DNA of 64,000 bases, taken from Sabellastarte sp. h YS-2021 (lineage: Eukaryota; Annelida; Polychaeta; Sabellida; Sabellidae). Below the pieces are notes generated by a model. It saw nothing but the letters and a program-made list of their open reading frames with translations. It had not been told where the DNA came from and did not search any database. This document shows positions 1-44,324 of the stretch, one piece after another; within the stretch, counting starts at the first letter, position 1, and the number at the start of each line of letters is the position of its first letter. A program made the position numbers and the translations under genes. The stretch spans positions 18,700,496 through 18,764,495 of the forward strand of contig OZ024936.1 of assembly GCA_964017235.1 (NCBI GenBank), read 5' to 3'.

Positions 1-2922
1 TATTCCCTGCGATTTGGTGAAGGTATCTTTATAAATGAATGAGATATTAAGGTTTATGTAAAAACGTGACGAACGCACGGACGGACACACGGACAGAAGG
101 CGTACTACAGACCAAAGCCTTCAACTGCTGGCGTGAGATAATAGTTAAGCAAGTACATTGAGATTTAGGTTTATTAGTTTATCAAGAGTTTTTAAAACAA
201 AAGTGTAGTATTTCGGGGGGGGGGATATATCGAAAAGTATGTGAGCTTTCGGGGTTCGTGATAGTTTGCATTATTTTCTAAGTGAGGCACACTTGTGAAA
301 ATTTTGCCTATCACATAAATTCCAAATAATTTAAAATATTATTATGGAATTTCAAGTTTTGAACATTCTGTCTAATAGTATACAATGTTAATATTTGAAA
401 TGCATGGAATCTAAATAACTGTTAGATGTTTATTACAATGAATGAGTTTAGTGCTTTTAATATATGAATTAAGATCAATGGTTTTCGATTTTGCCCTTTA
501 GACTGAATTAATACAGCTTTGTAAGCAATGCAAATTCATATTAGTCTCAGACTTTCAAACAGCTTAAGGTGTATAAGTTAAGCCAGGATCATCATTTACA
601 TGAATACAAAGCATAGCTATAAACAAAATGGGTGAAGAATGCTCTAGTTTTAAAAATAAACTACAATGGTAATCTCTCTCACAAATGGGAACACATACAA
701 GAACTAAGTATAGGTTAATGACCAAGTAAGCGTCAAATATTAGAAAATAATGGATTTACATGGTCCAGAAAGGGCCGAGTCAACAATGCAAACAATCCAT
801 TATTTTCTAATAGTGGACACTTACCAGGCTATTAACCTATTAAAATTACGCTGATTTCTTAATTTGTAAATTTAAAGACATTTTGTAACATCCTTAATTT
901 TCATTCCTATATTTCTCGTGTGTATTTTTAGGTTTTTGTGATCATTTTAGTTGAAATAAATGTAGAAGATGTTTCTTTTGAAATGTGTAGTAAGGGTTTC
1001 TCTATATGGCGAAAATCACAGAGTGGAACAACTGCCCAATAGTGAAATTTAAAATATACCTGTGATGTCACACTATTGTTAAAAGTGTAGATTATTCATC
1101 ACTCTTCTGTAGATTCTTTTAACCCAAACTGTGGATACTTAAAAAAATCCACACTTGGATTTCATGGCCAAATAATTACCTCAGCCAGAGCTGGTCTTAA
1201 GAAGCAGTAAAATTACTATTTCAACATTAGAAATGTCTTCATAATTAGGTTGATAATCTAAATTATTCCCTTAGTTAAATGCAGTACAGGTTTTCACAGG
1301 TTTGCACCAATTCGTTGTCATAAATATAAAAAAAATCTGGCCAAGTGTTATTGCTAGTAGAATTCTAGCATTTTCAGCTGCAATATCTGAAAATGTTTTG
1401 TCTCCTAAAGAGCATGTCTACAGCATTGAAAGCTGTATCTTTATCAACTGACCTAGCCAAATTCTCTGTAAATATATTCTGAGTAATAAATATGCCATTT
1501 TCATCAGCATTTTAATCCATTGTATGAATTTCACAGCAAACAATAAATAGAATGACCACTACATACAAACATGCAAGTGAAGGTAGATTTTTCATGGCTG
1601 AATGGCTTTAAAGAGTCCACACTTTTTGGAAATGGTAGCAAACAGTGCAATGAACATATGAAATACTATGATAATCCTTTACAGATATTCTGCTTCCAAT
1701 AACGAGTAGTTAACAAAATCATTATAGTATATGAATTTACAGAATTAACAGAATTTACCAAAACTAATTTATTAAAATATAATGTCTTTTAATGCACCAT
1801 AACTATATACCAATAACCATGCCAAACAATTTATTATATGGTAATACATTTTTTTTTAATTTGGTGACTCTTTTGGATTTCCATAGAATATGTTGTACAA
1901 TATAGGCATAATACATGAACATAATTGTGATCAATCACCACATCCTAAATTGGTTTAAGTGCTATGGTAATTAATATTAAACAATAATATTGAAAATAAT
2001 AATTACATTAACCTCATTGCATTTTTCTAATTTCTTCTTATAGCACAAATTATTATTTAAAAAGTTAACTTCCTGCTCACGAGTCATTATATATTGGTTA
2101 AATGTACCTGGGTGAACACATATTTAGTTTAACATATAATCATGAAATGATATATATTTTAAGTTAGAGAATGCCCTCAAAAATGTGGATGCTTTGATTT
2201 CAAAGAATCCACACTTTTTCGGGAATGCTTCATAATGGACACTTTTAACAAAAGAAAATTTCTTAGGTGTAAAGCGTAAATAAAACAGCATGGTCAAAGG
2301 CAAATGTAAATTTGTGCAACCTTTTTTAACACCCATTTATGGTGGTAGTACACCAGAATTAAGCCACATGACATCCCTTTGTCGCATTTCAGTGGAGATC
2401 ATAATATTCTTTTCTGCTATGGACCTCAAGCATACATTTGAATATTCCCAACCTTTTTATTTGTTTATTTATTTTTTTTTTTTATAATTTAGGCTTTTTT
2501 GAAAAATTCATCAGTAAATGCTAATATGTTCCTGTTAAACATGGTTTATTCTGTATAATTCACCAAAGTGTATGCCTAGGAGTTTAAGAATTATGCAATG
2601 ATTTTACTAAAATATGATCGTTTTCATCTCTGCAATAGTATTTTAATAACATCTAAATATTTTGGACAGATATATAGATACATATTTCGGAGTCAAAATC
2701 AAGACATATTGAGTGTCCTTTGTAAGAAACACCCACCAACATGATATTATCATGTGATTGTCACATGATTAAACAGAACTCAGTACGTGACAGTTATGAC
2801 ACCATTACATATCAGACCTGAAATTTAAGACATATATTTCTATAAAAGTGGTTCTCCAGTGTTTTGGTAGTTGATTAGCTGACTGCATTGATATATAAAA
2901 TGATACTTTCAGCCTGCAGTAA
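1..2922. other. AT-rich flank of Harbinger copy A, no gene recognised
   Basis: This AT-rich stretch has only short open frames, none with a recognisable domain. It contains the small palindromic element at 711-839. A short phrase containing TCCACACTT recurs near 1150, 1616 and 2210, which suggests old dispersed repeat material. The first ~60 bases continue the dispersed repeat seen at 13.5-14.5 kb and, inverted, at 57.5 kb. Confidence 0.6.
711..839. mobile_element. Short palindromic MITE-like element (copy A)
   Basis: The arms begin TAGGTTAAT and end ATTAACCTA. The inner arm AATCCATTATTTTCTAATA pairs with its complement near 737-755, leaving a loop of about 40 bases. The outer arm pairs imperfectly and the inner 19 bp almost perfectly. 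A 129-bp sequence that is nearly all inverted repeat fits a miniature inverted-repeat element or its remnant. No target duplication was established. Confidence 0.5.
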
Positions 2923-3300
2923 TGCCCCTGTTCCACCAAAAGATTAAGCCCCGATCCTGTCGGCGACCCTTAATCATGCACAGTCGGTTGAAAAAAGACA
3001 AAAATGGGCGGGAATACTGGGTCGGTACTGAAGTCTGGGATTAAGAACAGATCGTCCCCAGGACGCCTCAGGACACCTCAGGACGCCTCAGGCGGCCGCA
3101 GACAGTCCCCGACTGGTCTGGGACTAAGAACCGACTAAGCCAGTTTTCGGGTCGGTTTCAACCACGATCCTGTCGGACACAAACCGACTGGGTCCCAGGA
3201 CGCCTCAGGCCTCCTGGGACTAAGAGCCGACTAACACACGATTAACTACCGGCGTCCTCAGGCATCCTCAGGCCTCCTCAGGCCTCCCCAGACCACGATC
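2923..3300. repeat. Left terminal and subterminal repeat region of Harbinger, copy A
   Basis: The terminal inverted repeat is followed by GC-rich sequence, unlike the AT-rich surroundings. It contains repeated GGGA(C/T)TAAG boxes (near 3038, 3117 and 3207), often followed by AACCGAC, mixed with many CCTCAGG/CCTCAGGACG units. The same motifs occur in both orientations at the right end. In Harbinger elements such subterminal repeats are plausible binding sites for the transposase and its Myb-like partner; that role is inferred. Confidence 0.75.
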
Positions 3301-3338
3301 CCCGATTATTGTTTTGCAAAGTTGCTGGATTTTCTGGG

Positions 3339-3353
3339 TATATATATATAAAA
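3339..3353 (+). promoter_or_regulatory. TATA box of the Harbinger transposase gene, copy A
   Basis: An alternating TATATATATATAAAA run lies about 45 bases before the start codon at 3396, so transcription would begin near 3375-3385 with a very short 5' leader. The position agrees with a simple TATA-driven intronless gene. Confidence 0.6.
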
Positions 3354-3395
3354 TTTGCGATCTAATCATCATTGCTTTTCTAGGAACACACCAGG

Positions 3396-4700
3396 ATGCC
3401 ACCTTTTAATGGAAGACAGATTCAACAACAACTTAGGGCTTTTTTGGTTTTTATTCAGTTACAAATAATCATGTATTTCCATTTTTTACGTCAAGCACAG
3501 CAACCACCACCACCACCACCAGCACCCATACAGAGACCTAGAAGAAGGCACAACATGTGGGTCAGGCCGTGGCTACTGCAGAGAGAGGAGAGGGGGGCCT
3601 ACCACAACATTATGGCTGATCTGTATGCCACAGACATTCCAGGATTCACCAACTACATGAGGATGACCCCAGAATTCTTTGAAATGATGAAGACCAGACT
3701 GGAACCACGTCTAGCCAGGCAGGCCACCAACTACAGAGCTCCTATCAGTGTTGGGGAGAAGTTAGCCCTCACCATCAGATATCTGGCCACTGGAGAGTCA
3801 TACACATCATTATCCTGTCAGTTCAGGGTTGGCAGATCCACCATTTCCAAGTTTCTACCAGAGGTCTGCAGGGCCATCCAGGATGAGTTCACCAGAGAGT
3901 ACCTCAAATGTCCTACTACTCCAGATGAGTGGAAAGAACTGGAAAGGGAATTCAGGATCAGGTGGAATGTTCCACATGCCCTGGGAGCCCTGGATGGAAA
4001 GCATGTGGCCCTGAAGAAACCCAAGAACTCTGGAGCCCTCTACCACAACTACAAGGGGTTCTTTTCCATTGTCATGTTGGCCTTGGTAGATGGGCAGTAC
4101 AAATTCAGATGGGTGGATGTGGGTACAGAAGGGTCTTGCTCAGATGCCCAGATATTTAATGCCTCTCAGCTGAAGAGGAGGATTGAAGATGGCAGGATAG
4201 GCTTCCCTGACCCAGCTCCTATAACACAGGGTGGTAGAGATGTCCCCTACTTCATTTTGGCAGATGATGCCTTTGCCCTGAAGACCTGGCTCATGAAACC
4301 CTATGGCAGAAGGCTGTTAACAAGGGAGGAAAGGATTGCCAACTACAGAATATCAAGGGGCAGGAGAGTTGTGGAGAACGCTTTTGGCATCCTTGTGTCA
4401 AGATTTAGAGTCATGAGGACCACCATTGAACTACCCCCAGAAACAGTTAGAGAAGTGGTCATGACCTGTGTGGTTCTGCACAATATACTCAGAAGCCAGT
4501 ATCAAGGTCAACCTGCTGGTCAGCAGCCTGGGGGGGATGATGATGATGATGATGTGCCTGGTGATTGTGGATTGATTGGTGGTGCTGCTGGTGGTGGCCA
4601 AGACAGAAACCCTGCTAGAGAGGCCAAAAGACAGAGGGATTACCTGAAGGACTACTTCAATAATGAGGGAGCAGTGGCCTGGCAAGATGGCAGAATATAA
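3396..4700 (+). CDS. PIF/Harbinger (HARBI1-like) DDE transposase, copy A
   Basis: This is a 434-residue intronless protein of the DDE nuclease family found in Harbinger elements and HARBI1. It would cut the element ends and join them to a TWA target in the nucleus. The N-terminus has a proline run (37-42) and a basic patch (47-51). A helix-turn-helix-like segment with VGRSTISKFL lies near 145-154. The nuclease core shows ALDGKH (D200), VDVGTEGSCSDAQIF (D250), LADDAF (D290/D291) and RRVVENAFG (E327), the acidic positions expected of the catalytic set. I cannot decide by eye which middle aspartate is catalytic. A run of six aspartates (381-386) precedes the basic C-terminus. The ATG follows a short leader after a TATA box, no frame damage is seen, and the length suits the family. 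The 3' end carries two histone-type hairpins (4718-4758). Confidence 0.93.
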   Translation: MPPFNGRQIQQQLRAFLVFIQLQIIMYFHFLRQAQQPPPPPPAPIQRPRRRHNMWVRPWLLQREERGAYHNIMADLYATDIPGFTNYMRMTPEFFEMMKTRLEPRLARQATNYRAPISVGEKLALTIRYLATGESYTSLSCQFRVGRSTISKFLPEVCRAIQDEFTREYLKCPTTPDEWKELEREFRIRWNVPHALGALDGKHVALKKPKNSGALYHNYKGFFSIVMLALVDGQYKFRWVDVGTEGSCSDAQIFNASQLKRRIEDGRIGFPDPAPITQGGRDVPYFILADDAFALKTWLMKPYGRRLLTREERIANYRISRGRRVVENAFGILVSRFRVMRTTIELPPETVREVVMTCVVLHNILRSQYQGQPAGQQPGGDDDDDDVPGDCGLIGGAAGGGQDRNPAREAKRQRDYLKDYFNNEGAVAWQDGRI

Positions 4701-4717
4701 GTCCTGTTGCAGTAAAC

Positions 4718-4733
4718 AGTCCTTTTCAGGACT
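4718..4733 (+). terminator. Histone-type 3' stem-loop 1 after the transposase, copy A
   Basis: AGTCCTTTTCAGGACT forms a perfect 6-bp stem with the 4-nt loop TTTC, starting 17 nt after the TAA stop. Size, loop and the G-C second base pair match the replication-dependent histone mRNA stem-loop. Compared with a GGTCCT/AGGACC type stem, only the first pair (A-T for G-C) differs. The preceding AAAC resembles the A-rich histone 5' flank. Confidence 0.7.
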
Positions 4734-4742
4734 AACTATAAC

Positions 4743-4758
4743 AGTCCTTTTCAGGACT
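4743..4758 (+). terminator. Histone-type 3' stem-loop 2 after the transposase, copy A
   Basis: This is a second copy of AGTCCTTTTCAGGACT, 9 nt after the first. It is followed by ACCAAAT and then TTCCAAAAACAA, as histone stem-loops are followed by ACCA and a purine-rich downstream element. The 31 bases after this hairpin match those after the hairpin of the convergent gene at 29 positions, so this is probably the functional processing site. Confidence 0.75.
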
Positions 4759-4792
4759 ACCAAATATTCCAAAAACAATTAATCAGCTATGT

Positions 4793-5007
4793 GGACAAAC
4801 AGACAAATCCCATGCCGAGCATAACTTGTTGAGAAGGACAAACAGACAAATCCCATGCCAAACATAACTTGTCGAGACGGACAAACAGACAAACCCCATG
4901 CCAAACATAACTTGTCGAGACGGACAAACAGACAAACCCCATGCCAAACATAACTTGTTCAGACAGACAAACAGACAAACCCCATGCCAAACATAACTTG
5001 TTCAGAC
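4793..5007. repeat. 43-bp minisatellite between the Harbinger genes, copy A
   Basis: Five tandem units of 43 bp begin GGACAAACAGACAAA and contain CATGCCAAACATAACTTGT. A degraded partial unit runs on to about 5054. The units differ at a few positions. Open frames across the array are by-products of the repeat. Confidence 0.9.
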
Positions 5008-5760
5008 AGACAAACAGACAAACACAACTTACGCACCCAACAAACAGACAAACCCACTGTTAAACAAAAGCGAAACACAAAGTGACACATAATATCCTAA
5101 ATTGAATAATTATTTTATATATTTTCAAATCCACATCATAATTTAAACATTTTTCTTTTTTCATGGCTGGGAAACTTATTTGTAGCAGAAATTTTTTTAT
5201 GGAAATATTCAATTTTAAATATTCATTTCTAATCACAAAAATTTGGAAAATATAACCATGGAACTAGTTTTGCTTTCAATAATGGGGGATTGTGTTTGCT
5301 AAATAGTTTGTCAGTTCGTTGGCATGGGTTCTATTTACTTTTGGGTTTGGGTGTTTGTTGGTTGGTGGTTACTGGGGTTGGGTTTTTTGGGGTAGTTGGG
5401 TATTAGGTTTGGTACTGGGTTTGTTATTTGGGGGTTATGTTTGGTATTGGGTTTGTCTGTTTGTGGGTTGGTAAGTATGTAATTATGCCTTTTAACTCTA
5501 GGGAAGGTGCAAGTGTTGGACTTTTCAATTACAGATTTTAAACTATCCCATGGATTTTAATCTAAAAATGGGCTGATTAATGGCCATATTGGGAGTTACT
5601 TTTAATATTTTTTTTATGTGGCCTTTTTGGTTATGTGTAGTGCCATGGGTTATTTGTTTCATGTTTGGGGTGGTGTAAGTGTTGGACTTTAATTTTTTTT
5701 TTTCTTGTGATAAGTATTTGTACTGAACTTTTTTGTTTTGGGAGGGGAATTGGAAGAACA
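5008..5760. other. Non-coding spacer between convergent Harbinger genes, copy A, with a G-rich tract
   Basis: No gene is seen here. On the plus strand 5290-5470 is strongly G/T biased with repeated GGTTTGG and GGGTTTGTT runs, a potential G-quadruplex or strand-asymmetric tract. The sequence GTAAGTGTTGGACTT recurs near 5505 (as GCAAGTGTTGGACTT) and 5676. Confidence 0.5.
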
Positions 5761-5793
5761 TGTAGCTGAATAATTGTTTTTGGAAGATTTGGT

Positions 5794-5809
5794 GGCCCTG
5801 AAAAGGGCC
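5794..5809 (-). terminator. Canonical histone-type 3' stem-loop after the MADF gene, copy A
   Basis: Read on the minus strand, GGCCCTTTTCAGGGCC is a textbook histone 3' stem-loop: 6-bp stem, loop TTTC, then ACCA. It begins 32 nt after the TAG stop (5842-5844). TTCCAAAAACAA follows, as after the convergent transposase gene. In histone mRNAs this hairpin binds SLBP and directs cleavage without polyadenylation; that function here is inferred. Confidence 0.8.
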
Positions 5810-5841
5810 TGGCAGGTCAAAGACCCGCCCTGACTGGATGG

Positions 5842-7065
5842 CTACTGAGGAGGCTGCTGCTGCTGTTGAGGCGGTGCTGAAGTGGTGATAGTAAAGAGCT
5901 GCTGCTGCGGTTGTTGCTGCTGCTGCTGCTGCTGAGGCTGCTCGACGATCTGTGTTGATGTCAGATCTGGTAGCTGGCTTAAGATTCCACTCAGATTGTG
6001 TCTGCTCCCTTCGTCCTGTACAGTTAGGACAGATGTAGGGTTGCTGAAGCCAATGGGGCTTGGTGTATAGTACACAAAACTGCTGCTAGCTGCTGCTTGA
6101 GTGGAACTTGGCGCCTGTGGAGTGGTTGTTGGCAGTAGGCCGACCCTCTGGGACTCCGTGGTAACAGTGGCTGATCTTCTGGGCAATGGCTGACGTCTGC
6201 GGTTACTCTTAATATTTTCGATATCTCTGAATATCTTGCCCTTTAATTCTTCAAATTCTTCTTGAGTCATCTTTTCGGCCTCTGATGCCACGTAGTCAAA
6301 GAAGGGCTGCCTGTCTGACTTCTGATGCAGAAAACCTGAGATAAGTGTCCTCATCTGCTCAAAGTGTTCGAGAATCTTGGAGTCTGTAGTTGAAACAGGT
6401 GTTGATGTAATGATGGACTGACTCCTCTCCCTCAGGACACTGGACTCGAGGTGTTCTGTGTCAGTAGTTGACCCACGTGATTCGTCCTGCTTGCTGGTAT
6501 TTGGACTGGCCTCAAAACCTGAACTTCTATTGGCCCCCTTTCTTCTGATGTGGGTTTTAAGAAAACCCATCTGTTGGTAGACCCAGGACTGTCTCTTGGT
6601 CATCTCCCTCGGGGCTTGGCCAGATTGGAGCTTAGACAGCTTTCCATAACGGGTTCGCTGGGACTCAAACCACCTTCTCACATCAAAGGGCTGGAGCTTA
6701 AGTTCTGCAGATATTTCTGCCCAGAGAGCCTCTCTTCTGTTCCTGTCGTGGAAACGTGAATGTTCCTTGTCATACAGTTCAGGGTGCAGCTTGACGAATT
6801 CTACAATGGAAACTTCATCACTGTCTGTAAAAGTTGCACACACCCTGGCTCTCTTGGCTGAAGAATGGCACTCCGGATCTTCCTCACACCTCTCTTCTTC
6901 TTCTGCCACAGCTTCCCCAATAGCTGGATCTTCCTGAATCTCCTCCTCCTCTCTCCTCTCACTTCCTTCTTCTGTAATAACTTCACTCCTCTCCTCTACT
7001 TGACTTTCCTTCTCCCTCTCATCCATCTTTTTCCTTCCTCTCTTCCCTCCTTTCTCTTTTCTCAT
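5842..7065 (-). CDS. Harbinger-encoded MADF/BESS-like DNA-binding protein, copy A
   Basis: This 407-residue intronless protein is the second gene of the element. In characterised Harbinger elements the Myb/SANT/MADF-like partner brings the transposase into the nucleus and onto the ends. Residues 1-75 are highly charged (K/R then E-rich). A MADF-type fold spans about 84-146, with VEFVKLHPELYDKEH, ALWAEISAEL and VRRWFESQRTRYGKL. Residues about 251-287 (FFDYVASEAEKMTQEEFEEL and following) look like a BESS protein-contact motif, though this is weaker. The tail (375-407) is polyglutamine-rich. The ATG at 7065 follows a leader of about 145 nt from a plausible TATA box. The gene converges on the transposase and ends with a histone-type hairpin. 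Neither frameshift nor in-frame stop is present. Confidence 0.88.
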   Translation of the reverse strand: MRKEKGGKRGRKKMDEREKESQVEERSEVITEEGSERREEEEIQEDPAIGEAVAEEEERCEEDPECHSSAKRARVCATFTDSDEVSIVEFVKLHPELYDKEHSRFHDRNRREALWAEISAELKLQPFDVRRWFESQRTRYGKLSKLQSGQAPREMTKRQSWVYQQMGFLKTHIRRKGANRSSGFEASPNTSKQDESRGSTTDTEHLESSVLRERSQSIITSTPVSTTDSKILEHFEQMRTLISGFLHQKSDRQPFFDYVASEAEKMTQEEFEELKGKIFRDIENIKSNRRRQPLPRRSATVTTESQRVGLLPTTTPQAPSSTQAAASSSFVYYTPSPIGFSNPTSVLTVQDEGSRHNLSGILSQLPDLTSTQIVEQPQQQQQQQQPQQQLFTITTSAPPQQQQQPPQ

Positions 7066-7238
7066 GATCCAGTCGACAAAATAATAAAAAAATAGTAAAA
7101 TGTGTCTCCTAACTGTGAAATTTGCCTTAAGCTCAAGTATATAAAATGTAAAATAAAAATTGAAAACCCCTACAAATCAGTGACACACGTCTCTCAGTAG
7201 CCAAACAGTCAGTAACAATGACAAAGTGTGCGCGGTCG

Positions 7239-7246
7239 CTTATATA
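7239..7246 (-). promoter_or_regulatory. TATA box of the MADF-protein gene, copy A
   Basis: On the minus strand CTATATAAGC lies about 175 bases upstream of the ATG. A start site about 30 bases downstream would fall near 7210. Confidence 0.5.
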
Positions 7247-7279
7247 GTCCCAGACCTGCTCATTGCCTCATTTTAATTT

Positions 7280-7866
7280 CCAACGCGCGGAAAACAGTCG
7301 GTTCTTAATCAGTTGTTAGTCCCAGGCCGCCTGGGGCATCCTCAGGACGCCGCAGACTGAAAATGCGTGGTCCCAGGCGTCCTGGGGAGGCCGGTTTGGA
7401 TCGGTTAGGGTCGGTTACCCTTAGTCGGTTCTTAGTCCCAGACCTTGATTTTTGGGTCGCAGGACACCGCAGACGGTCTGAGGCTTCCGGGGACTAATGA
7501 AACCGACTCACTTTCAGACGCATGAAATTCATACGCATCATATTTGAGTCTGGGATTAAGAACCGGCCGCCTGGGACTAAGCTACGGAGGTCTGGGACTA
7601 AGGGTCGCAGGACGCCTGGGACAACAACCGACTCTGTAAATTTGGGTCTGAGGAGGCCTGAGGACGCCTGGGACTGGACATTTTGTTGACGGCGGGAAAT
7701 AGGAATCGGTTGTAGTCGTGTGAAATATCAAACATGTTTGATTTTTCACACGGCCTCAACCGACCACAACCGATCCTTACAGGAAGCCTGGGACTAAGCA
7801 AATATTTCAAACCGACCCCCCAAAACCCTTAATCGGGAGCCTTAGTCGTGTGGTGGAACACCCACA
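7280..7866. repeat. Right terminal and subterminal repeat region of Harbinger, copy A
   Basis: This GC-rich end contains many GTCGGTTCTTAGTCCCAG-type boxes in both orientations (near 7309, 7316, 7428, 7549, 7575, 7591 and 7788) and CCTCAGG/CCTGGG units, mirroring the left end. An inverted pair around AAACATGTTTGA lies near 7725-7750. The terminus is GGTGGAACACCCACA followed by the TAA target duplication. Confidence 0.75.
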
Positions 7867-7982
7867 TAACTTGACCAATTTCTCTCCTAAAGAACACATT
7901 TATTTATCTGCCATTGGAAACCTAGTTTTATGACATTACAGTGCTCAACTTACTTTGTTTAATAAAATACTGACTCTAGCTA

Positions 7983-8182
7983 NNNNNNNNNNNNNNNNNN
8001 NNNNNNNNNNNNNNNNNNNNNNNNNNNNNNNNNNNNNNNNNNNNNNNNNNNNNNNNNNNNNNNNNNNNNNNNNNNNNNNNNNNNNNNNNNNNNNNNNNNN
8101 NNNNNNNNNNNNNNNNNNNNNNNNNNNNNNNNNNNNNNNNNNNNNNNNNNNNNNNNNNNNNNNNNNNNNNNNNNNNNNNNNN
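7983..8182. other. Assembly gap of exactly 200 N
   Basis: A round 200-base N run is a placeholder gap of unknown true size made at scaffolding. The duplicated block ends immediately before it and the ankyrin coding sequence is cut immediately after it. Confidence 0.98.
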
Positions 8183-14395: not shown

Positions 14396-17317
14396 TATTC
14401 CCTGCGATTTGGTGAAGGTATCTTTATAAATGAATGAGATATTAAGGTTTATGTAAAAACGTGACGAACGCACGGACGGACACACGGACAGAAGGCGTAC
14501 TACAGACCAAAGCCTTCAACTGCTGGCGTGAGATAATAGTTAAGCAAGTACATTGAGATTTAGGTTTATTAGTTTATCAAGAGTTTTTAAAACAAAAGTG
14601 TAGTATTTCGGGGGGGGGGATATATCGAAAAGTATGTGAGCTTTCGGGGTTCGTGATAGTTTGCATTATTTTCTAAGTGAGGCACACTTGTGAAAATTTT
14701 GCCTATCACATAAATTCCAAATAATTTAAAATATTATTATGGAATTTCAAGTTTTGAACATTCTGTCTAATAGTATACAATGTTAATATTTGAAATGCAT
14801 GGAATCTAAATAACTGTTAGATGTTTATTACAATGAATGAGTTTAGTGCTTTTAATATATGAATTAAGATCAATGGTTTTCGATTTTGCCCTTTAGACTG
14901 AATTAATACAGCTTTGTAAGCAATGCAAATTCATATTAGTCTCAGACTTTCAAACAGCTTAAGGTGTATAAGTTAAGCCAGGATCATCATTTACATGAAT
15001 ACAAAGCATAGCTATAAACAAAATGGGTGAAGAATGCTCTAGTTTTAAAAATAAACTACAATGGTAATCTCTCTCACAAATGGGAACACATACAAGAACT
15101 AAGTATAGGTTAATGACCAAGTAAGCGTCAAATATTAGAAAATAATGGATTTACATGGTCCAGAAAGGGCCGAGTCAACAATGCAAACAATCCATTATTT
15201 TCTAATAGTGGACACTTACCAGGCTATTAACCTATTAAAATTACGCTGATTTCTTAATTTGTAAATTTAAAGACATTTTGTAACATCCTTAATTTTCATT
15301 CCTATATTTCTCGTGTGTATTTTTAGGTTTTTGTGATCATTTTAGTTGAAATAAATGTAGAAGATGTTTCTTTTGAAATGTGTAGTAAGGGTTTCTCTAT
15401 ATGGCGAAAATCACAGAGTGGAACAACTGCCCAATAGTGAAATTTAAAATATACCTGTGATGTCACACTATTGTTAAAAGTGTAGATTATTCATCACTCT
15501 TCTGTAGATTCTTTTAACCCAAACTGTGGATACTTAAAAAAATCCACACTTGGATTTCATGGCCAAATAATTACCTCAGCCAGAGCTGGTCTTAAGAAGC
15601 AGTAAAATTACTATTTCAACATTAGAAATGTCTTCATAATTAGGTTGATAATCTAAATTATTCCCTTAGTTAAATGCAGTACAGGTTTTCACAGGTTTGC
15701 ACCAATTCGTTGTCATAAATATAAAAAAAATCTGGCCAAGTGTTATTGCTAGTAGAATTCTAGCATTTTCAGCTGCAATATCTGAAAATGTTTTGTCTCC
15801 TAAAGAGCATGTCTACAGCATTGAAAGCTGTATCTTTATCAACTGACCTAGCCAAATTCTCTGTAAATATATTCTGAGTAATAAATATGCCATTTTCATC
15901 AGCATTTTAATCCATTGTATGAATTTCACAGCAAACAATAAATAGAATGACCACTACATACAAACATGCAAGTGAAGGTAGATTTTTCATGGCTGAATGG
16001 CTTTAAAGAGTCCACACTTTTTGGAAATGGTAGCAAACAGTGCAATGAACATATGAAATACTATGATAATCCTTTACAGATATTCTGCTTCCAATAACGA
16101 GTAGTTAACAAAATCATTATAGTATATGAATTTACAGAATTAACAGAATTTACCAAAACTAATTTATTAAAATATAATGTCTTTTAATGCACCATAACTA
16201 TATACCAATAACCATGCCAAACAATTTATTATATGGTAATACATTTTTTTTTAATTTGGTGACTCTTTTGGATTTCCATAGAATATGTTGTACAATATAG
16301 GCATAATACATGAACATAATTGTGATCAATCACCACATCCTAAATTGGTTTAAGTGCTATGGTAATTAATATTAAACAATAATATTGAAAATAATAATTA
16401 CATTAACCTCATTGCATTTTTCTAATTTCTTCTTATAGCACAAATTATTATTTAAAAAGTTAACTTCCTGCTCACGAGTCATTATATATTGGTTAAATGT
16501 ACCTGGGTGAACACATATTTAGTTTAACATATAATCATGAAATGATATATATTTTAAGTTAGAGAATGCCCTCAAAAATGTGGATGCTTTGATTTCAAAG
16601 AATCCACACTTTTTCGGGAATGCTTCATAATGGACACTTTTAACAAAAGAAAATTTCTTAGGTGTAAAGCGTAAATAAAACAGCATGGTCAAAGGCAAAT
16701 GTAAATTTGTGCAACCTTTTTTAACACCCATTTATGGTGGTAGTACACCAGAATTAAGCCACATGACATCCCTTTGTCGCATTTCAGTGGAGATCATAAT
16801 ATTCTTTTCTGCTATGGACCTCAAGCATACATTTGAATATTCCCAACCTTTTTATTTGTTTATTTATTTTTTTTTTTTATAATTTAGGCTTTTTTGAAAA
16901 ATTCATCAGTAAATGCTAATATGTTCCTGTTAAACATGGTTTATTCTGTATAATTCACCAAAGTGTATGCCTAGGAGTTTAAGAATTATGCAATGATTTT
17001 ACTAAAATATGATCGTTTTCATCTCTGCAATAGTATTTTAATAACATCTAAATATTTTGGACAGATATATAGATACATATTTCGGAGTCAAAATCAAGAC
17101 ATATTGAGTGTCCTTTGTAAGAAACACCCACCAACATGATATTATCATGTGATTGTCACATGATTAAACAGAACTCAGTACGTGACAGTTATGACACCAT
17201 TACATATCAGACCTGAAATTTAAGACATATATTTCTATAAAAGTGGTTCTCCAGTGTTTTGGTAGTTGATTAGCTGACTGCATTGATATATAAAATGATA
17301 CTTTCAGCCTGCAGTAA
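14396..17317. other. AT-rich flank of Harbinger copy B, no gene recognised
   Basis: It has the same content as 1-2922, with the small palindromic element at 15106-15234 and no recognisable coding sequence. Confidence 0.6.
15106..15234. mobile_element. Short palindromic MITE-like element (copy B)
   Basis: Identical to 711-839: outer arms TAGGTTAAT/ATTAACCTA and a near-perfect inner stem with about 40 bases of loop. Confidence 0.5.
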
Positions 17318-17695
17318 TGCCCCTGTTCCACCAAAAGATTAAGCCCCGATCCTGTCGGCGACCCTTAATCATGCACAGTCGGTTGAAAAAAGACAAAAAT
17401 GGGCGGGAATACTGGGTCGGTACTGAAGTCTGGGATTAAGAACAGATCGTCCCCAGGACGCCTCAGGACACCTCAGGACGCCTCAGGCGGCCGCAGACAG
17501 TCCCCGACTGGTCTGGGACTAAGAACCGACTAAGCCAGTTTTCGGGTCGGTTTCAACCACGATCCTGTCGGACACAAACCGACTGGGTCCCAGGACGCCT
17601 CAGGCCTCCTGGGACTAAGAGCCGACTAACACACGATTAACTACCGGCGTCCTCAGGCATCCTCAGGCCTCCTCAGGCCTCCCCAGACCACGATC
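17318..17695. repeat. Left terminal and subterminal repeat region of Harbinger, copy B
   Basis: Same terminal repeat, GGGA(C/T)TAAG boxes and CCTCAGG-rich stretch as copy A. These are probable protein-binding sites, by inference. Confidence 0.75.
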
Positions 17696-17733
17696 CCCGA
17701 TTATTGTTTTGCAAAGTTGCTGGATTTTCTGGG

Positions 17734-17748
17734 TATATATATATAAAA
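17734..17748 (+). promoter_or_regulatory. TATA box of the Harbinger transposase gene, copy B
   Basis: TATATATATATAAAA about 45 bases before the ATG at 17791. Confidence 0.6.
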
Positions 17749-17790
17749 TTTGCGATCTAATCATCATTGCTTTTCTAGGAACACACCAGG

Positions 17791-19095
17791 ATGCCACCTT
17801 TTAATGGAAGACAGATTCAACAACAACTTAGGGCTTTTTTGGTTTTTATTCAGTTACAAATAATCATGTATTTCCATTTTTTACGTCAAGCACAGCAACC
17901 ACCACCACCACCACCAGCACCCATACAGAGACCTAGAAGAAGGCACAACATGTGGGTCAGGCCGTGGCTACTGCAGAGAGAGGAGAGGGGGGCCTACCAC
18001 AACATTATGGCTGATCTGTATGCCACAGACATTCCAGGATTCACCAACTACATGAGGATGACCCCAGAATTCTTTGAAATGATGAAGACCAGACTGGAAC
18101 CACGTCTAGCCAGGCAGGCCACCAACTACAGAGCTCCTATCAGTGTTGGGGAGAAGTTAGCCCTCACCATCAGATATCTGGCCACTGGAGAGTCATACAC
18201 ATCATTATCCTGTCAGTTCAGGGTTGGCAGATCCACCATTTCCAAGTTTCTACCAGAGGTCTGCAGGGCCATCCAGGATGAGTTCACCAGAGAGTACCTC
18301 AAATGTCCTACTACTCCAGATGAGTGGAAAGAACTGGAAAGGGAATTCAGGATCAGGTGGAATGTTCCACATGCCCTGGGAGCCCTGGATGGAAAGCATG
18401 TGGCCCTGAAGAAACCCAAGAACTCTGGAGCCCTCTACCACAACTACAAGGGGTTCTTTTCCATTGTCATGTTGGCCTTGGTAGATGGGCAGTACAAATT
18501 CAGATGGGTGGATGTGGGTACAGAAGGGTCTTGCTCAGATGCCCAGATATTTAATGCCTCTCAGCTGAAGAGGAGGATTGAAGATGGCAGGATAGGCTTC
18601 CCTGACCCAGCTCCTATAACACAGGGTGGTAGAGATGTCCCCTACTTCATTTTGGCAGATGATGCCTTTGCCCTGAAGACCTGGCTCATGAAACCCTATG
18701 GCAGAAGGCTGTTAACAAGGGAGGAAAGGATTGCCAACTACAGAATATCAAGGGGCAGGAGAGTTGTGGAGAACGCTTTTGGCATCCTTGTGTCAAGATT
18801 TAGAGTCATGAGGACCACCATTGAACTACCCCCAGAAACAGTTAGAGAAGTGGTCATGACCTGTGTGGTTCTGCACAATATACTCAGAAGCCAGTATCAA
18901 GGTCAACCTGCTGGTCAGCAGCCTGGGGGGGATGATGATGATGATGATGTGCCTGGTGATTGTGGATTGATTGGTGGTGCTGCTGGTGGTGGCCAAGACA
19001 GAAACCCTGCTAGAGAGGCCAAAAGACAGAGGGATTACCTGAAGGACTACTTCAATAATGAGGGAGCAGTGGCCTGGCAAGATGGCAGAATATAA
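17791..19095 (+). CDS. PIF/Harbinger (HARBI1-like) DDE transposase, copy B
   Basis: This 434-residue protein is identical to the one in copy A. It has a proline run and basic patch at the N-terminus, a helix-turn-helix-like VGRSTISKFL, and nuclease-core acidic residues at D200, D250, D290/D291 and E327. Catalytic positions and reading frame are intact. It probably acts with the MADF protein encoded on the opposite strand of the same element. The stop codon is followed within 17 and 42 nt by two histone-type hairpins. If the assembly duplication is artificial, this is the same gene as copy A. Confidence 0.93.
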   Translation: MPPFNGRQIQQQLRAFLVFIQLQIIMYFHFLRQAQQPPPPPPAPIQRPRRRHNMWVRPWLLQREERGAYHNIMADLYATDIPGFTNYMRMTPEFFEMMKTRLEPRLARQATNYRAPISVGEKLALTIRYLATGESYTSLSCQFRVGRSTISKFLPEVCRAIQDEFTREYLKCPTTPDEWKELEREFRIRWNVPHALGALDGKHVALKKPKNSGALYHNYKGFFSIVMLALVDGQYKFRWVDVGTEGSCSDAQIFNASQLKRRIEDGRIGFPDPAPITQGGRDVPYFILADDAFALKTWLMKPYGRRLLTREERIANYRISRGRRVVENAFGILVSRFRVMRTTIELPPETVREVVMTCVVLHNILRSQYQGQPAGQQPGGDDDDDDVPGDCGLIGGAAGGGQDRNPAREAKRQRDYLKDYFNNEGAVAWQDGRI

Positions 19096-19112
19096 GTCCT
19101 GTTGCAGTAAAC

Positions 19113-19128
19113 AGTCCTTTTCAGGACT
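19113..19128 (+). terminator. Histone-type 3' stem-loop 1 after the transposase, copy B
   Basis: AGTCCTTTTCAGGACT, 6-bp stem with TTTC loop, 17 nt after the stop. Confidence 0.7.
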
Positions 19129-19137
19129 AACTATAAC

Positions 19138-19153
19138 AGTCCTTTTCAGGACT
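19138..19153 (+). terminator. Histone-type 3' stem-loop 2 after the transposase, copy B
   Basis: Second AGTCCTTTTCAGGACT, followed by ACCAAAT and TTCCAAAAACAA, the downstream block shared with the convergent gene. Confidence 0.75.
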
Positions 19154-19187
19154 ACCAAATATTCCAAAAACAATTAATCAGCTATGT

Positions 19188-19402
19188 GGACAAACAGACA
19201 AATCCCATGCCGAGCATAACTTGTTGAGAAGGACAAACAGACAAATCCCATGCCAAACATAACTTGTCGAGACGGACAAACAGACAAACCCCATGCCAAA
19301 CATAACTTGTCGAGACGGACAAACAGACAAACCCCATGCCAAACATAACTTGTTCAGACAGACAAACAGACAAACCCCATGCCAAACATAACTTGTTCAG
19401 AC
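19188..19402. repeat. 43-bp minisatellite between the Harbinger genes, copy B
   Basis: Five 43-bp units beginning GGACAAACAGACAAA, identical to copy A. Confidence 0.9.
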
Positions 19403-20155
19403 AGACAAACAGACAAACACAACTTACGCACCCAACAAACAGACAAACCCACTGTTAAACAAAAGCGAAACACAAAGTGACACATAATATCCTAAATTGA
19501 ATAATTATTTTATATATTTTCAAATCCACATCATAATTTAAACATTTTTCTTTTTTCATGGCTGGGAAACTTATTTGTAGCAGAAATTTTTTTATGGAAA
19601 TATTCAATTTTAAATATTCATTTCTAATCACAAAAATTTGGAAAATATAACCATGGAACTAGTTTTGCTTTCAATAATGGGGGATTGTGTTTGCTAAATA
19701 GTTTGTCAGTTCGTTGGCATGGGTTCTATTTACTTTTGGGTTTGGGTGTTTGTTGGTTGGTGGTTACTGGGGTTGGGTTTTTTGGGGTAGTTGGGTATTA
19801 GGTTTGGTACTGGGTTTGTTATTTGGGGGTTATGTTTGGTATTGGGTTTGTCTGTTTGTGGGTTGGTAAGTATGTAATTATGCCTTTTAACTCTAGGGAA
19901 GGTGCAAGTGTTGGACTTTTCAATTACAGATTTTAAACTATCCCATGGATTTTAATCTAAAAATGGGCTGATTAATGGCCATATTGGGAGTTACTTTTAA
20001 TATTTTTTTTATGTGGCCTTTTTGGTTATGTGTAGTGCCATGGGTTATTTGTTTCATGTTTGGGGTGGTGTAAGTGTTGGACTTTAATTTTTTTTTTTCT
20101 TGTGATAAGTATTTGTACTGAACTTTTTTGTTTTGGGAGGGGAATTGGAAGAACA
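19403..20155. other. Non-coding spacer between convergent Harbinger genes, copy B
   Basis: Same as 5008-5760, with the G/T-rich tract at 19685-19865. No gene. Confidence 0.5.
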
Positions 20156-20188
20156 TGTAGCTGAATAATTGTTTTTGGAAGATTTGGT

Positions 20189-20204
20189 GGCCCTGAAAAG
20201 GGCC
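20189..20204 (-). terminator. Canonical histone-type 3' stem-loop after the MADF gene, copy B
   Basis: Minus strand GGCCCTTTTCAGGGCC then ACCA, 32 nt after the stop of the MADF gene. Confidence 0.8.
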
Positions 20205-20236
20205 TGGCAGGTCAAAGACCCGCCCTGACTGGATGG

Positions 20237-21460
20237 CTACTGAGGAGGCTGCTGCTGCTGTTGAGGCGGTGCTGAAGTGGTGATAGTAAAGAGCTGCTGC
20301 TGCGGTTGTTGCTGCTGCTGCTGCTGCTGAGGCTGCTCGACGATCTGTGTTGATGTCAGATCTGGTAGCTGGCTTAAGATTCCACTCAGATTGTGTCTGC
20401 TCCCTTCGTCCTGTACAGTTAGGACAGATGTAGGGTTGCTGAAGCCAATGGGGCTTGGTGTATAGTACACAAAACTGCTGCTAGCTGCTGCTTGAGTGGA
20501 ACTTGGCGCCTGTGGAGTGGTTGTTGGCAGTAGGCCGACCCTCTGGGACTCCGTGGTAACAGTGGCTGATCTTCTGGGCAATGGCTGACGTCTGCGGTTA
20601 CTCTTAATATTTTCGATATCTCTGAATATCTTGCCCTTTAATTCTTCAAATTCTTCTTGAGTCATCTTTTCGGCCTCTGATGCCACGTAGTCAAAGAAGG
20701 GCTGCCTGTCTGACTTCTGATGCAGAAAACCTGAGATAAGTGTCCTCATCTGCTCAAAGTGTTCGAGAATCTTGGAGTCTGTAGTTGAAACAGGTGTTGA
20801 TGTAATGATGGACTGACTCCTCTCCCTCAGGACACTGGACTCGAGGTGTTCTGTGTCAGTAGTTGACCCACGTGATTCGTCCTGCTTGCTGGTATTTGGA
20901 CTGGCCTCAAAACCTGAACTTCTATTGGCCCCCTTTCTTCTGATGTGGGTTTTAAGAAAACCCATCTGTTGGTAGACCCAGGACTGTCTCTTGGTCATCT
21001 CCCTCGGGGCTTGGCCAGATTGGAGCTTAGACAGCTTTCCATAACGGGTTCGCTGGGACTCAAACCACCTTCTCACATCAAAGGGCTGGAGCTTAAGTTC
21101 TGCAGATATTTCTGCCCAGAGAGCCTCTCTTCTGTTCCTGTCGTGGAAACGTGAATGTTCCTTGTCATACAGTTCAGGGTGCAGCTTGACGAATTCTACA
21201 ATGGAAACTTCATCACTGTCTGTAAAAGTTGCACACACCCTGGCTCTCTTGGCTGAAGAATGGCACTCCGGATCTTCCTCACACCTCTCTTCTTCTTCTG
21301 CCACAGCTTCCCCAATAGCTGGATCTTCCTGAATCTCCTCCTCCTCTCTCCTCTCACTTCCTTCTTCTGTAATAACTTCACTCCTCTCCTCTACTTGACT
21401 TTCCTTCTCCCTCTCATCCATCTTTTTCCTTCCTCTCTTCCCTCCTTTCTCTTTTCTCAT
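20237..21460 (-). CDS. Harbinger-encoded MADF/BESS-like DNA-binding protein, copy B
   Basis: This 407-residue protein is identical to copy A. It has a charged N-terminus, a MADF-type domain about 84-146, a BESS-like segment about 251-287 and a glutamine-rich tail 375-407. It is expected to bind the subterminal repeats and assist the transposase, a role known for Myb-like partners of other Harbinger elements and inferred here. The gene is intronless, with a TATA box about 175 bases upstream of the ATG, and ends with the canonical histone-type hairpin. Confidence 0.88.
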   Translation of the reverse strand: MRKEKGGKRGRKKMDEREKESQVEERSEVITEEGSERREEEEIQEDPAIGEAVAEEEERCEEDPECHSSAKRARVCATFTDSDEVSIVEFVKLHPELYDKEHSRFHDRNRREALWAEISAELKLQPFDVRRWFESQRTRYGKLSKLQSGQAPREMTKRQSWVYQQMGFLKTHIRRKGANRSSGFEASPNTSKQDESRGSTTDTEHLESSVLRERSQSIITSTPVSTTDSKILEHFEQMRTLISGFLHQKSDRQPFFDYVASEAEKMTQEEFEELKGKIFRDIENIKSNRRRQPLPRRSATVTTESQRVGLLPTTTPQAPSSTQAAASSSFVYYTPSPIGFSNPTSVLTVQDEGSRHNLSGILSQLPDLTSTQIVEQPQQQQQQQQPQQQLFTITTSAPPQQQQQPPQ

Positions 21461-21633
21461 GATCCAGTCGACAAAATAATAAAAAAATAGTAAAATGTGT
21501 CTCCTAACTGTGAAATTTGCCTTAAGCTCAAGTATATAAAATGTAAAATAAAAATTGAAAACCCCTACAAATCAGTGACACACGTCTCTCAGTAGCCAAA
21601 CAGTCAGTAACAATGACAAAGTGTGCGCGGTCG

Positions 21634-21641
21634 CTTATATA
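21634..21641 (-). promoter_or_regulatory. TATA box of the MADF-protein gene, copy B
   Basis: CTATATAAGC on the minus strand, as in copy A. Confidence 0.5.
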
Positions 21642-21674
21642 GTCCCAGACCTGCTCATTGCCTCATTTTAATTT

Positions 21675-22261
21675 CCAACGCGCGGAAAACAGTCGGTTCT
21701 TAATCAGTTGTTAGTCCCAGGCCGCCTGGGGCATCCTCAGGACGCCGCAGACTGAAAATGCGTGGTCCCAGGCGTCCTGGGGAGGCCGGTTTGGATCGGT
21801 TAGGGTCGGTTACCCTTAGTCGGTTCTTAGTCCCAGACCTTGATTTTTGGGTCGCAGGACACCGCAGACGGTCTGAGGCTTCCGGGGACTAATGAAACCG
21901 ACTCACTTTCAGACGCATGAAATTCATACGCATCATATTTGAGTCTGGGATTAAGAACCGGCCGCCTGGGACTAAGCTACGGAGGTCTGGGACTAAGGGT
22001 CGCAGGACGCCTGGGACAACAACCGACTCTGTAAATTTGGGTCTGAGGAGGCCTGAGGACGCCTGGGACTGGACATTTTGTTGACGGCGGGAAATAGGAA
22101 TCGGTTGTAGTCGTGTGAAATATCAAACATGTTTGATTTTTCACACGGCCTCAACCGACCACAACCGATCCTTACAGGAAGCCTGGGACTAAGCAAATAT
22201 TTCAAACCGACCCCCCAAAACCCTTAATCGGGAGCCTTAGTCGTGTGGTGGAACACCCACA
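21675..22261. repeat. Right terminal and subterminal repeat region of Harbinger, copy B
   Basis: Same arrays of GTCGGTTCTTAGTCCCAG-type boxes in both orientations and the same terminus GGTGGAACACCCACA as copy A. Confidence 0.75.
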
Positions 22262-22264
22262 TAA

Positions 22265-38389: not shown

Positions 38390-38533
38390 ATCTAATCTAA
38401 TGTGGACTTTTATAGCGCTTAATCTCCATCACTGATGGACTCTAAGGCGCGTCTAAACATAAAGCAAGGCAGTTAGCGTTAATCAAGGGACATAGCCAGG
38501 TCGTACCAAGGAGACACAGATGTGACGGGGAAG

Positions 38534-42272: not shown

Positions 42273-43372
42273 TAAAGTAGAAGAAGAAAGCCACAAAACC
42301 CTTGGGGTTTGCCGTGGATCTACAAAAGAAAAGATAATGGATGTTACAACAACCTCTTGGCTTATTAAATACAGACTGACGTTCCAGGTAACCAGAATTT
42401 GTGAGGGTGACCTATGCAGTTTTCAAGCTCATTGAAGAGCACATACATCCCAGCTTGAAGAAGGAAGTCATCGATTTCAAGCAATCCTTAGAAGCTGGAT
42501 TTTCCACTTAGAAACTTGGCCACTGGAAAACTATGCCTCTCACTGGATGGTTGGACAAACCACCATATGTAAATTCATCCTAAGGTCTGTCGGAGCATCT
42601 TTGAGGAATTCCAAGAAGAGTATTTGATGTGCCTGCCATTCTTGGAGAATGGAGACAGATCTAGGAGAGGTTCAGAAACAAATGGAATGTCCCCAATAGA
42701 GAAATAGGAAACATGTCGCCATAAACCCTACTACACCCGGGAACAAATTTTACAACTACAAGTGTTTCTTTTCCCTGATTCTGCCAGCTCTGGTTGATAC
42801 TAAATACAGTTTACTTTAGGTAAATGTGGGGTCCAATGGATCTTCATCAGATGCACAAATGTTCAACTGCTACAAGTTGATGAAAAGATAGAAAATGGCA
42901 CTTTGTGGTTTCTGCCACCTGAACCAATGGGGAGAAGGGAGGCTTCCTTTAAACTGTTCCTTGTGGGTGATGACTCTTTTACCTTGAGAAACAGCTAGTG
43001 AAGCCCTACAGCAGTAGAAAACTGACTTGGGAAGAGAGAATAACAAACTACAGGATGCAGAGGGTCGTGAAGAATGCACTTGGGATATTAGTGATCAGAT
43101 TCAGTGTCTTACTCGACAAAATGGAGTAAAAACCAAAGATTGTTGGAGTATTGTCATGTGTTGTTTTACACAATTTCCTGAGGACACATAAAGAAGAAAG
43201 AGCCCAACCACAGAACCTACAGCATGACCTGCTATGCATAATGAACAGTTATATGTGGAGCAGATTGAAACTGTAGGAATACCTCAAGGGCAGCAAAGCC
43301 ACAGAGAAGCCTATACTTAAGGATTACTTGCACCACTTTGGTGCCTTGGCTGGGCAGGAGGCAAGAATATGA
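42273..43372 (+). pseudogene. Dead Harbinger (HARBI1-like) transposase, related to the intact element
   Basis: The conceptual pieces align along most of the intact transposase. They include PWGLPWIYKRKDNGCYNN (start), VGQTTICKFI (helix-turn-helix region), FEEFQEEYLMCLP, GTNFYNYKCFFSLILPALVD, VNVGSNGSSSDAQMFN, then LVKPYSSRKLTWEERITNYR and RVVKNALGILVIRF, ending GQEARI and TGA at 43370-43372. Several stops and frameshifts interrupt it. The DGKH aspartate region reads IGNM and the catalytic glutamate (E327 of the intact protein) is lysine, so it would be dead even if readable. It is still followed by the same histone-type hairpin (43422-43437). Confidence 0.85.
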
Positions 43373-43421
43373 AAATGTGACAGGGGACCTCCCCTGGGGA
43401 CAGAAATAGCTTGCATCTGTC

Positions 43422-43437
43422 AGTCCTTTTCAGGACT
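43422..43437 (+). terminator. Retained histone-type stem-loop after the dead transposase
   Basis: AGTCCTTTTCAGGACT is the same as in the intact element, 49 nt after the stop relic. It is followed by ACC and TTCCAAAAA, matching the downstream block of the intact genes although the coding part has diverged strongly. Confidence 0.7.
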
Positions 43438-44324
43438 ACCCTGTTGTTCCAAAAATTTTAAATTTTCTTAGTGTTGCACCAATGTTAAACAAGTTTCCAA
43501 CCATTTACTTTACCCGACCCTGTAAACATTGCAAACCAACCTTAGAGTCGGGAAGAACTGGTTCCAGTGTAACACCCCTATTATAACTAATGATAATTAA
43601 GTACCATTATTTTATTTAGTTTTAGATTTAGAAATTTGGAGACACCTTGAATAATTGCCTGTATATATCAGTACCCTCCTGATATGATGCAAGACTTATA
43701 TCTTGATGTAGATACATTTTTCGCCAAATCAACCATTAGTATGTTGTATGTTCATTTTAAATCCCTAAATGAATTTTTCATTTCCCAAAACAATCTGATC
43801 TCTTGAGTCCAGAGGTTAATCTAGATTTTCATAACTGTCAGCTTTATAGTTGTGAAATACAAGCACTAATATTAACTGATACATCTGAGCAGAAATATGT
43901 CTTTCCTTAAGAAACTATCAATACATTATGTCAATAATATATACATAAATGAAGGATACTTTTCATAAATTTATGAATATGATATAAAGATTTGATCGTA
44001 CATATTTATAATAAACATATATAATTTGACTTATATATTACTGAATTTACAGGTTACAATTTGATTTTCCTGCGGAGTTTAGAAACAGTATTTACATTCC
44101 GGGATGATTCCTATTCCGGTAAAATTTTGTGTGTTAGCATGCGCCCTTCTTTTTCCTGAACCTTGTACACATATTTGTTTCTTTTGGCTATACTGCGAAA
44201 ATAATGCTAACAGGATATCTATAAATATGAAAGTCAAAGTTCTTTCGCGAAATCCTGATGATTATATTCGAGAAACGAAAAAAGATATACATAAAGGTAA
44301 AAGTGTATATTATCGCCCAACCAA
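43438..44324. other. AT-rich DNA; possible right end of the dead Harbinger near 43575
   Basis: Near 43545-43575 the sequence GGTTCCAGTGTAACACCCC reads in complement as GGGGTGTTACACTGGAACC, which resembles a Harbinger-type terminus. No gene is seen in the rest. Confidence 0.35.

Follow-up and report, generated by a model that had tools for sequence, protein, structure and literature searches.

The window analysed here, a stretch of 64,000 nucleotides, harbors a complete two-gene PIF/Harbinger element (positions 2929-7860), as delimited by its ORFs, its Pfam domains and the alignment of its ends (Table 1). The transposase gene and the MADF gene are convergent, with their 3' ends about 1 kb apart, and the initial annotation, which had called this Harbinger transposon intact, was borne out by the two uninterrupted ORFs, the DDE_Tnp_4 and MADF_DNA_bdg domains, the terminal inverted repeats and the 3-bp target site duplication. 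In agreement with the assignment to PIF/Harbinger, the single insertion inspected has the terminal repeat TGTTCCACCA and a 3-bp duplication, the second gene is of the Myb/SANT/MADF kind (Pfam MADF_DNA_bdg), and the DDE_Tnp_4-type transposase keeps its catalytic residues intact: D200, D250 and E327, which we take to be the catalytic triad, occupy invariant alignment columns across 14 sequences. A transposase accompanied by a Myb/MADF protein, short terminal inverted repeats and a 3-bp target site duplication are likewise found in the PIF/Harbinger elements Harbinger3_DR and Harbinger-Snek. The two-gene design and the 3-bp duplication are described in the accessible text of PMC9710019, and the two-protein design also in that of PMC8437027; the term 'stem-loop' was absent from both by term search. 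Between the convergent genes of the element lies a 43-bp tandem repeat array (4793-5109).

Comparison of the window with itself revealed that positions 1-7982 recur at 14396-22377 with 100% identity, and that the match stops at a gap of 200 N (7983-8182). This copy is probably an assembly duplicate, similar to an artefact of scaffold joining; it was rejected as independent evidence, the element was counted once, and the hairpins that this exact repeat contains, at 19113, 19138 and 20204, add no independent cases. A decayed transposase farther along, which is an independent copy, shares 25-38% amino acid identity with the intact one; behind it stand the 16-nt hairpin of the intact element and then the tail TTCCAAAAA. 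On the minus strand at 38479-40478, ORFs resemble by eye a LINE-type reverse transcriptase, and no TTTC-loop hairpin was found there.

Table 1. Features of the PIF/Harbinger element and its relatives in the 64-kb window
Feature	Position	Strand	Evidence and remarks
Left target site duplication CCC, 3 bp	2926..2928	.	Sequence, end alignment
Left terminal inverted repeat TGTTCCACCA	2929..2938	+	10 perfect positions, imperfect inward; alignment of both ends
Transposase gene, 434 aa, uninterrupted ORF	3396..4700	+	ORF list; Pfam DDE_Tnp_4 E 2.4e-32
Upstream transposase hairpin AGTCCTTTTCAGGACT, without its own downstream element	4718..4733	+	17 nt past stop
Main transposase histone-type stem-loop AGTCCTTTTCAGGACT	4743..4758	+	42 nt past stop; RF00032 31.5 bits
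ACC and histone downstream element AAATATTCCAAAAACAATTAATCAGCT, transposase gene	4759..4788	+	Match to host histone tails
ACC and histone downstream element AAATCTTCCAAAAACAATTATTCAGCT, MADF gene	5764..5793	-	Match to host H4
MADF histone-type stem-loop GGCCCTTTTCAGGGCC	5794..5809	-	32 nt past stop, then ACCA; RF00032 35.2 bits
MADF (Myb/SANT-like) gene, 407 aa, uninterrupted ORF	5842..7065	-	Pfam MADF_DNA_bdg E 2.1e-11
Right terminal inverted repeat	7851..7860	-	Alignment of element ends
Right target site duplication CCC	7861..7863	.	Sequence, end alignment
Duplicate hairpins at 19113, 19138 and 20204	19113..20204	.	Exact second copy
Decayed transposase, nearest to lineage B	42276..43369	+	tblastn, best query P0111 E 9.6e-38 (ten queries)
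Stem-loop AGTCCTTTTCAGGACT (43422-43437) and tail of the decayed copy	43422..43467	+	Tail near host H2A/H2B type, 22/31

The hairpins that the initial annotation had reported at both gene ends are there as claimed, two copies of AGTCCTTTTCAGGACT past the transposase stop and GGCCCTTTTCAGGGCC past the MADF stop, all three with perfect 6-bp stems (AGTCCT in the transposase gene, GGCCCT in the MADF gene) and a TTTC loop. The MADF hairpin, which had been described as looking canonical for histone mRNA, scored 35.2 bits with the Rfam model RF00032 (E 1.7e-6 over 64 kb), above the gathering threshold of 34; the second transposase hairpin reached 31.5 bits, under that threshold (E 4.3e-5 over 64 kb), the first one gave no separate match in the scan of the 64-kb window, and positions 43417-43463 in the decayed copy scored 18.9 bits, which is non-significant alone (E 2.1 over 64 kb). 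Perfect hairpins of histone type in 8183-64000 numbered 4, three in the second copy of the element and one in the decayed copy, against a mean of 0.23 and a maximum of 1 in 60 shuffles. Among the 55 perfect stems of 6 bp with a 4-nt loop in the window, TTTC was the loop in 7, and all 7 stand at Harbinger gene ends (four places plus three in the exact duplicate). The two 3' ends are also alike beyond the hairpin, 40 of 44 nt being identical without gaps from the inner stem to ACCAAATnTTCCAAAAACAATTAnTCAGCTA (score 36, with 100 shuffles reaching at most 20).

The host genome (1.786 Gb) was searched for histone genes and gave 13 matches, of which 10 are covered by the five regions fetched and inspected, with two on C11 and one on C3 left out. 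In these regions, six host histone genes (two H4, H3, H2A and H2B clustered in L048, and an H2A.X-like gene in L051) carry, 31-41 nt past the stop, a stem-loop with a TTTC loop and ACC, followed by a downstream element of type CTTTCAAAAACAATTATTCAGCT or CTTTCAAGAACTTTTATTT; the element reads ACCTATATCTTTCAAAAACAATTATTCAGCTG in H4, ACCTAAAACTTCCAAAAACAATTAATAAGCTG in H3 and ACCCATATCTTTCAAGAACTTTTATTTGAGCTA in H2A. No comparable stem-loop was found within 200 nt of the stop for an H3 in L048 that runs into N, the H3 reading in L049 or the H2A-type gene in L050, and no ORF passed the inspection in L052. Stem-loop, TTTC loop, ACC and downstream element are common to the replication-dependent histone genes of the host and to the transposon. 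Replication-dependent histone genes are uninterrupted, as are both ORFs of the element. The host genes differ in that they encode histones and have the stems GGCTCT (five genes) or GGTCCT (one), beginning with G-C in 6/6, whereas the transposase stem begins with A-U; in lineage A, to which the window element belongs, the distance between stem and downstream element is smaller by 1 nt than in the host histone genes. The tails themselves match those of the host. That of the lineage A MADF gene agrees with H4 at 29/32 positions and that of the lineage A transposase with H2A.X at 26/29 and H3 at 24/27; in lineage B, described below, the transposase tail agrees with H2B at 29/37, and the MADF tail with H3 at 25/27 and H4 at 29/33. 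In each of these comparisons, 0/1000 shuffles were as good.

Paired changes in the stem were analysed by aligning cassettes from the host (five) and from the transposon (three). The stems are paired in all 48 cells of these eight cassettes, a percentage that 0/500 shuffles reached, and in three of the six pairs both partners have changed (G-C/A-U, C-G/U-A and C-G/U-A). The covariation score was 0.512 against 0.257 in shuffled alignments and was reached in 0/500, a comparison in which kinship can beat such shuffles; the count of cells changed on both sides was also reached in 0/500, and two of the five measures lay within the shuffles (number of pairs with both partners changed, 157/500; further pair types, 499/500). 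Sliding the partner columns lowered the score to 0.113 or less. With the four hairpins of the window alone the covariation was weaker, and 28/500 shuffles did equally well. SLBP requires loop uridines 1 and 3 together with the second G-C pair, and the second stem pair is G-C in 8/8 host and transposon cassettes.

The signal is not restricted to the window. The core pattern CCTTTTCAGGNYNACCAAAT occurs 1615 + 1584 = 3,199 times in the 1.786 Gb, and the reversed control 0 times. Among 100 listed places, 40 make 20 convergent pairs, 403-1209 bp apart, with ACT followed by GCC as in the window. All 30 excised loci of the pattern sit after a coding end, 23 of them of transposase and 7 of MADF genes, with the hairpin on the strand of the coding end in 30/30; in these lineage A loci, selected by the hairpin pattern, the hairpin is fully paired in 23/23 and 7/7 cases. 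Across 24 transposase copies, the window included, the 22 nt past the pattern, which were not used in the selection, show 93.3% pairwise identity; the corresponding values are 88.7% for coding sequence, 90.0% for the UTR immediately preceding the hairpin and 46-78% farther downstream, where the two lowest figures are ungapped and hence lowered by indels. In 8 MADF-A copies identity is 85.7% for the downstream element, lower than the 93.5% of the coding sequence, and 97.4% for the UTR preceding the hairpin. Eight further elements, chosen by the hairpin pattern, agreed with the window at 0.97 and 0.96 in the downstream elements of the two genes, at 0.77 in the middle and at 0.10 across the 50 nt after the transposase downstream element. 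The lineage A family has probably moved recently, because 84 of 97 genomic rows matching the protein P0116 list no internal stop; taken as a group, most of these rows resemble lineage A by their 52-54% identity to P0116.

The initial annotation had made its reading depend on hairpin conservation in independent copies of the family, and within this genome such conservation was found in lineage B, a decayed lineage represented by P0111, a protein encoded at C6:41971160-41972539 and 52% identical to the window transposase. The sample consists of the best 25 of 98 matches, picked by coding match alone (92 of 24,100 candidates were scored), and includes as separate members L075 and L080, which lie 24 kb apart with the same identity and stops and resemble one duplicated insertion. 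Nearly all 25 loci contain internal stops, and the transposase hairpin is kept in 23/25 with at most 2/19 mismatches, being perfect in 15 and broken in L069 and L072. The majority tail behind it, ACCCAAATAATCCAAGAACTTTTATTTAGC, belongs to the H2A/H2B type of the host. On the opposite strand, about 0.7-1 kb farther on, a MADF-type hairpin resembling GGCCCTTNTNAGGGCC is present in 17/25 loci with at most 4 mismatches, followed by the majority tail ACCCGAATCTTCCAAAAACAATTAACAAGCT of H3/H4 type; it was absent from the fetched DNA in the other 8/25. A search with the MADF protein of the window, about 30% identical, recognised MADF coding sequence in 4/25 loci: in L069 it reaches the last residue 40 nt ahead of the hairpin, L070 has it upstream of the hairpin and on the strand of the latter, in L082 it is present and the hairpin was not found, and in L073 it is located beyond the transposase, on the far side. 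In the remaining lineage B loci the hairpin is linked to MADF by position. Full pairing is seen in 18/25 transposase and 11/17 MADF-B hairpins. All 17 MADF-B hairpins have T at loop positions 1 and 3, whereas position 2 is C in 9, T in 5, G in 2 and A in 1, and position 4 is C in 11 and A in 6 (Fisher p 2.3e-5). Because stem departures average 4%, these data suggest that loop position 2 varied while lineage B was alive.

A third lineage in the same genome differs from the window element. Lineage C was sampled as seven matches to P0116 at 56-59% (97 scored of 22,567 candidates), and the transposase-side 3' flanks of these seven loci, 651-701 nt long, contain the hairpin in 0/7 cases. Instead, an AATAAA site within an aligned GCAATAAAAT stands 239-265 nt past the last transposase residues in L085-L090 (GGAATAAAAT in L090); L084 differs, its AATAAA lying farther on. 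In a tree of eleven proteins, P0116 and P0119, the stand-ins for lineage C, are apart from the window type and occupy the longest branch, joined to P0098 and P0111 (0.992). If the tree is rooted on the P0116/P0119 branch, it fits a single gain of the histone signal before the split of lineages A and B, as far as can be read from these proteins. On that rooting, the signal is predicted for elements related to P0098, P0075 and P0080 and not for those resembling P0116/P0119.

With regard to the machinery, the SLBP RNA-binding domain (PF15247) was detected in the host as two matches that jointly span the domain (C6:90391325-90402289); since the host has both this domain and ordinary stem-loop histone genes, the processing machinery is present. 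A search with the Rfam U7 model gave no match among 65 of 574,071 candidates scored, too few to be informative. Replication-dependent histone mRNAs of metazoans carry a stem-loop instead of poly(A), according to the accessible part of PMC2781718, and the available text of PMC6210712 describes histone genes with stem-loops in bivalves. The human stem-loop list, as given in excerpts of PMC7807067, includes GGCCCTTTTCAGGGCC and GGCCCTTCTCAGGGCC, which are forms occurring in MADF-A and MADF-B, and likewise GGCCCTTTTAAGGGCC, present in one MADF-B copy (L073). In the openly licensed PMC literature, as covered by titles and abstract openings, we found no precedent for a transposon or a Harbinger element with a histone stem-loop, SLBP or U7.

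Taken together, these results make it likely that the mRNAs of both genes carry the replication-dependent histone 3'-end signal of the host and are processed by SLBP and U7. The suggestion in the initial annotation that the element makes histone-like mRNAs thus receives strong support from sequence, in the form of a two-part signal of host type that recurs thousands of times in the genome and is shared by two lineages with a deep split between them, while a third lineage has a common AATAAA. SLBP/U7 cleavage is the simplest reading because stem-loop, spacing and downstream element are present on both genes. The host SLBP and U7 snRNP would cleave both pre-mRNAs directly past the stem-loop, with CAAAAACAATTA and CAAGAACTTTTA as candidate U7-pairing sequences, and the products would be non-polyadenylated messages ending in the stem-loop, tied, as histone messages are, to S phase or to the pools of the oocyte and early embryo. 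Given the convergent arrangement of the genes, about 1 kb apart, transcripts terminated at the hairpins would presumably also be kept from overlapping. Whether the lineage has in this way taken over the histone 3'-end pathway, so as to place poly(A)-less messages in S phase or the oocyte, when copied DNA permits a gain in copy number by cut-and-paste movement, is a further step that we consider evenly balanced. The downstream element comes in two flavours, H3/H4-like and H2A/H2B-like, and on this view it would have been captured more than once, from different histone genes of the host.

The strongest competitor of this reading, which we regard as rather unlikely, is that the histone signal works and many transcripts, chiefly somatic ones, nevertheless bypass it and receive poly(A) at sites farther downstream. 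A model for such dual ends is the human H2A.X mRNA, for which excerpts of PMC7807067 describe both stem-loop and poly(A) ends; that gene encodes a histone variant of the host, unlike the mobile element. Downstream hexamers are available: AATAAA lies within 400 nt past the hairpin in 11/23 lineage A transposase copies, and 5/9 elements, the window included, have ATTAAA behind the MADF hairpin at distances of about 185 and about 230 nt. The AATAAA positions are, however, scattered over 58-384 nt (raw, unaligned) and missing in 12/23 copies, the window has no AATAAA between its hairpins on either strand, and hexamers alone do not demonstrate use. Among the nine elements, AATAAA is found between the two hairpins on the transposase strand in 5/9 and on the MADF strand in 7/9. 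The lack of poly(A) signals was dropped as a proof of histone-type processing, as it is not general across the copies and is non-significant in the window (0 AWTAAA on the plus strand between the genes against 2.1 expected, P 0.12).

It is much less probable that the hairpins bind SLBP as decoys or translation enhancers and not as 3'-end signals. Tandem copies would then add binding sites, and the transposase 3' UTRs (L010, L026 and others) do contain tandem stem-loops, 1 to 3 per copy and spaced by about 23-25 nt, of which the upstream ones have no downstream element; the last hairpin, however, retains a downstream element of host type in both genes and both lineages, and a pure decoy needs none. 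A structural or chance feature unconnected with RNA processing, such as a recombination hairpin, is similarly improbable: the hairpins do lie near the middle of the element and repeated DNA may hold any palindrome, but the score with the histone model, the paired changes, the host-like downstream element, the MADF-B loops with positions 1 and 3 fixed and 2 and 4 variable, and the constant agreement with the strand of the coding end all speak against it.

To our knowledge, histone mRNAs are the sole animal mRNAs known to end regularly in such a stem-loop. A very abundant transposon with the whole signal would provide naturally occurring substrates of SLBP and U7 other than histone messages, and a possible and testable route by which a mobile element is coupled to DNA replication. 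If SLBP/U7 processing of the element holds, RNA surveys based on poly(A) would miss its messages, and its activity would be underestimated by RNA-seq of poly(A)-selected samples. One genome with two lineages bearing the histone-type signal and one bearing a poly(A) signal instead makes the switch directly testable.

Viral contigs were searched with the transposase and with the alignment, and no relatives were confirmed; two hairpin patterns gave 1 and 2 matches there, all set aside: L001 resembles coding sequence by eye, and L003 and L004 had no RF00032 match, the L003 site standing at the end of its stretch and being scored partially. Prokaryote contigs yielded one Harbinger fragment (L002, 35% identical, without its 3' end) on a betaproteobacterial metagenome-bin contig, which is probably eukaryotic contamination. 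In the protein database, P0088, P0182 and P0217 were dropped by eye as chance matches. Among proteins that have lost their stop, also judged by eye, the hairpin is gone in P0225 and decayed in P0049 and P0064; others read through into the 3' UTR and spell out the cassette, as NQSFSGLPNIPKNN in P0006 and as PGPFQGHQIFQKQL in P0153 and others.
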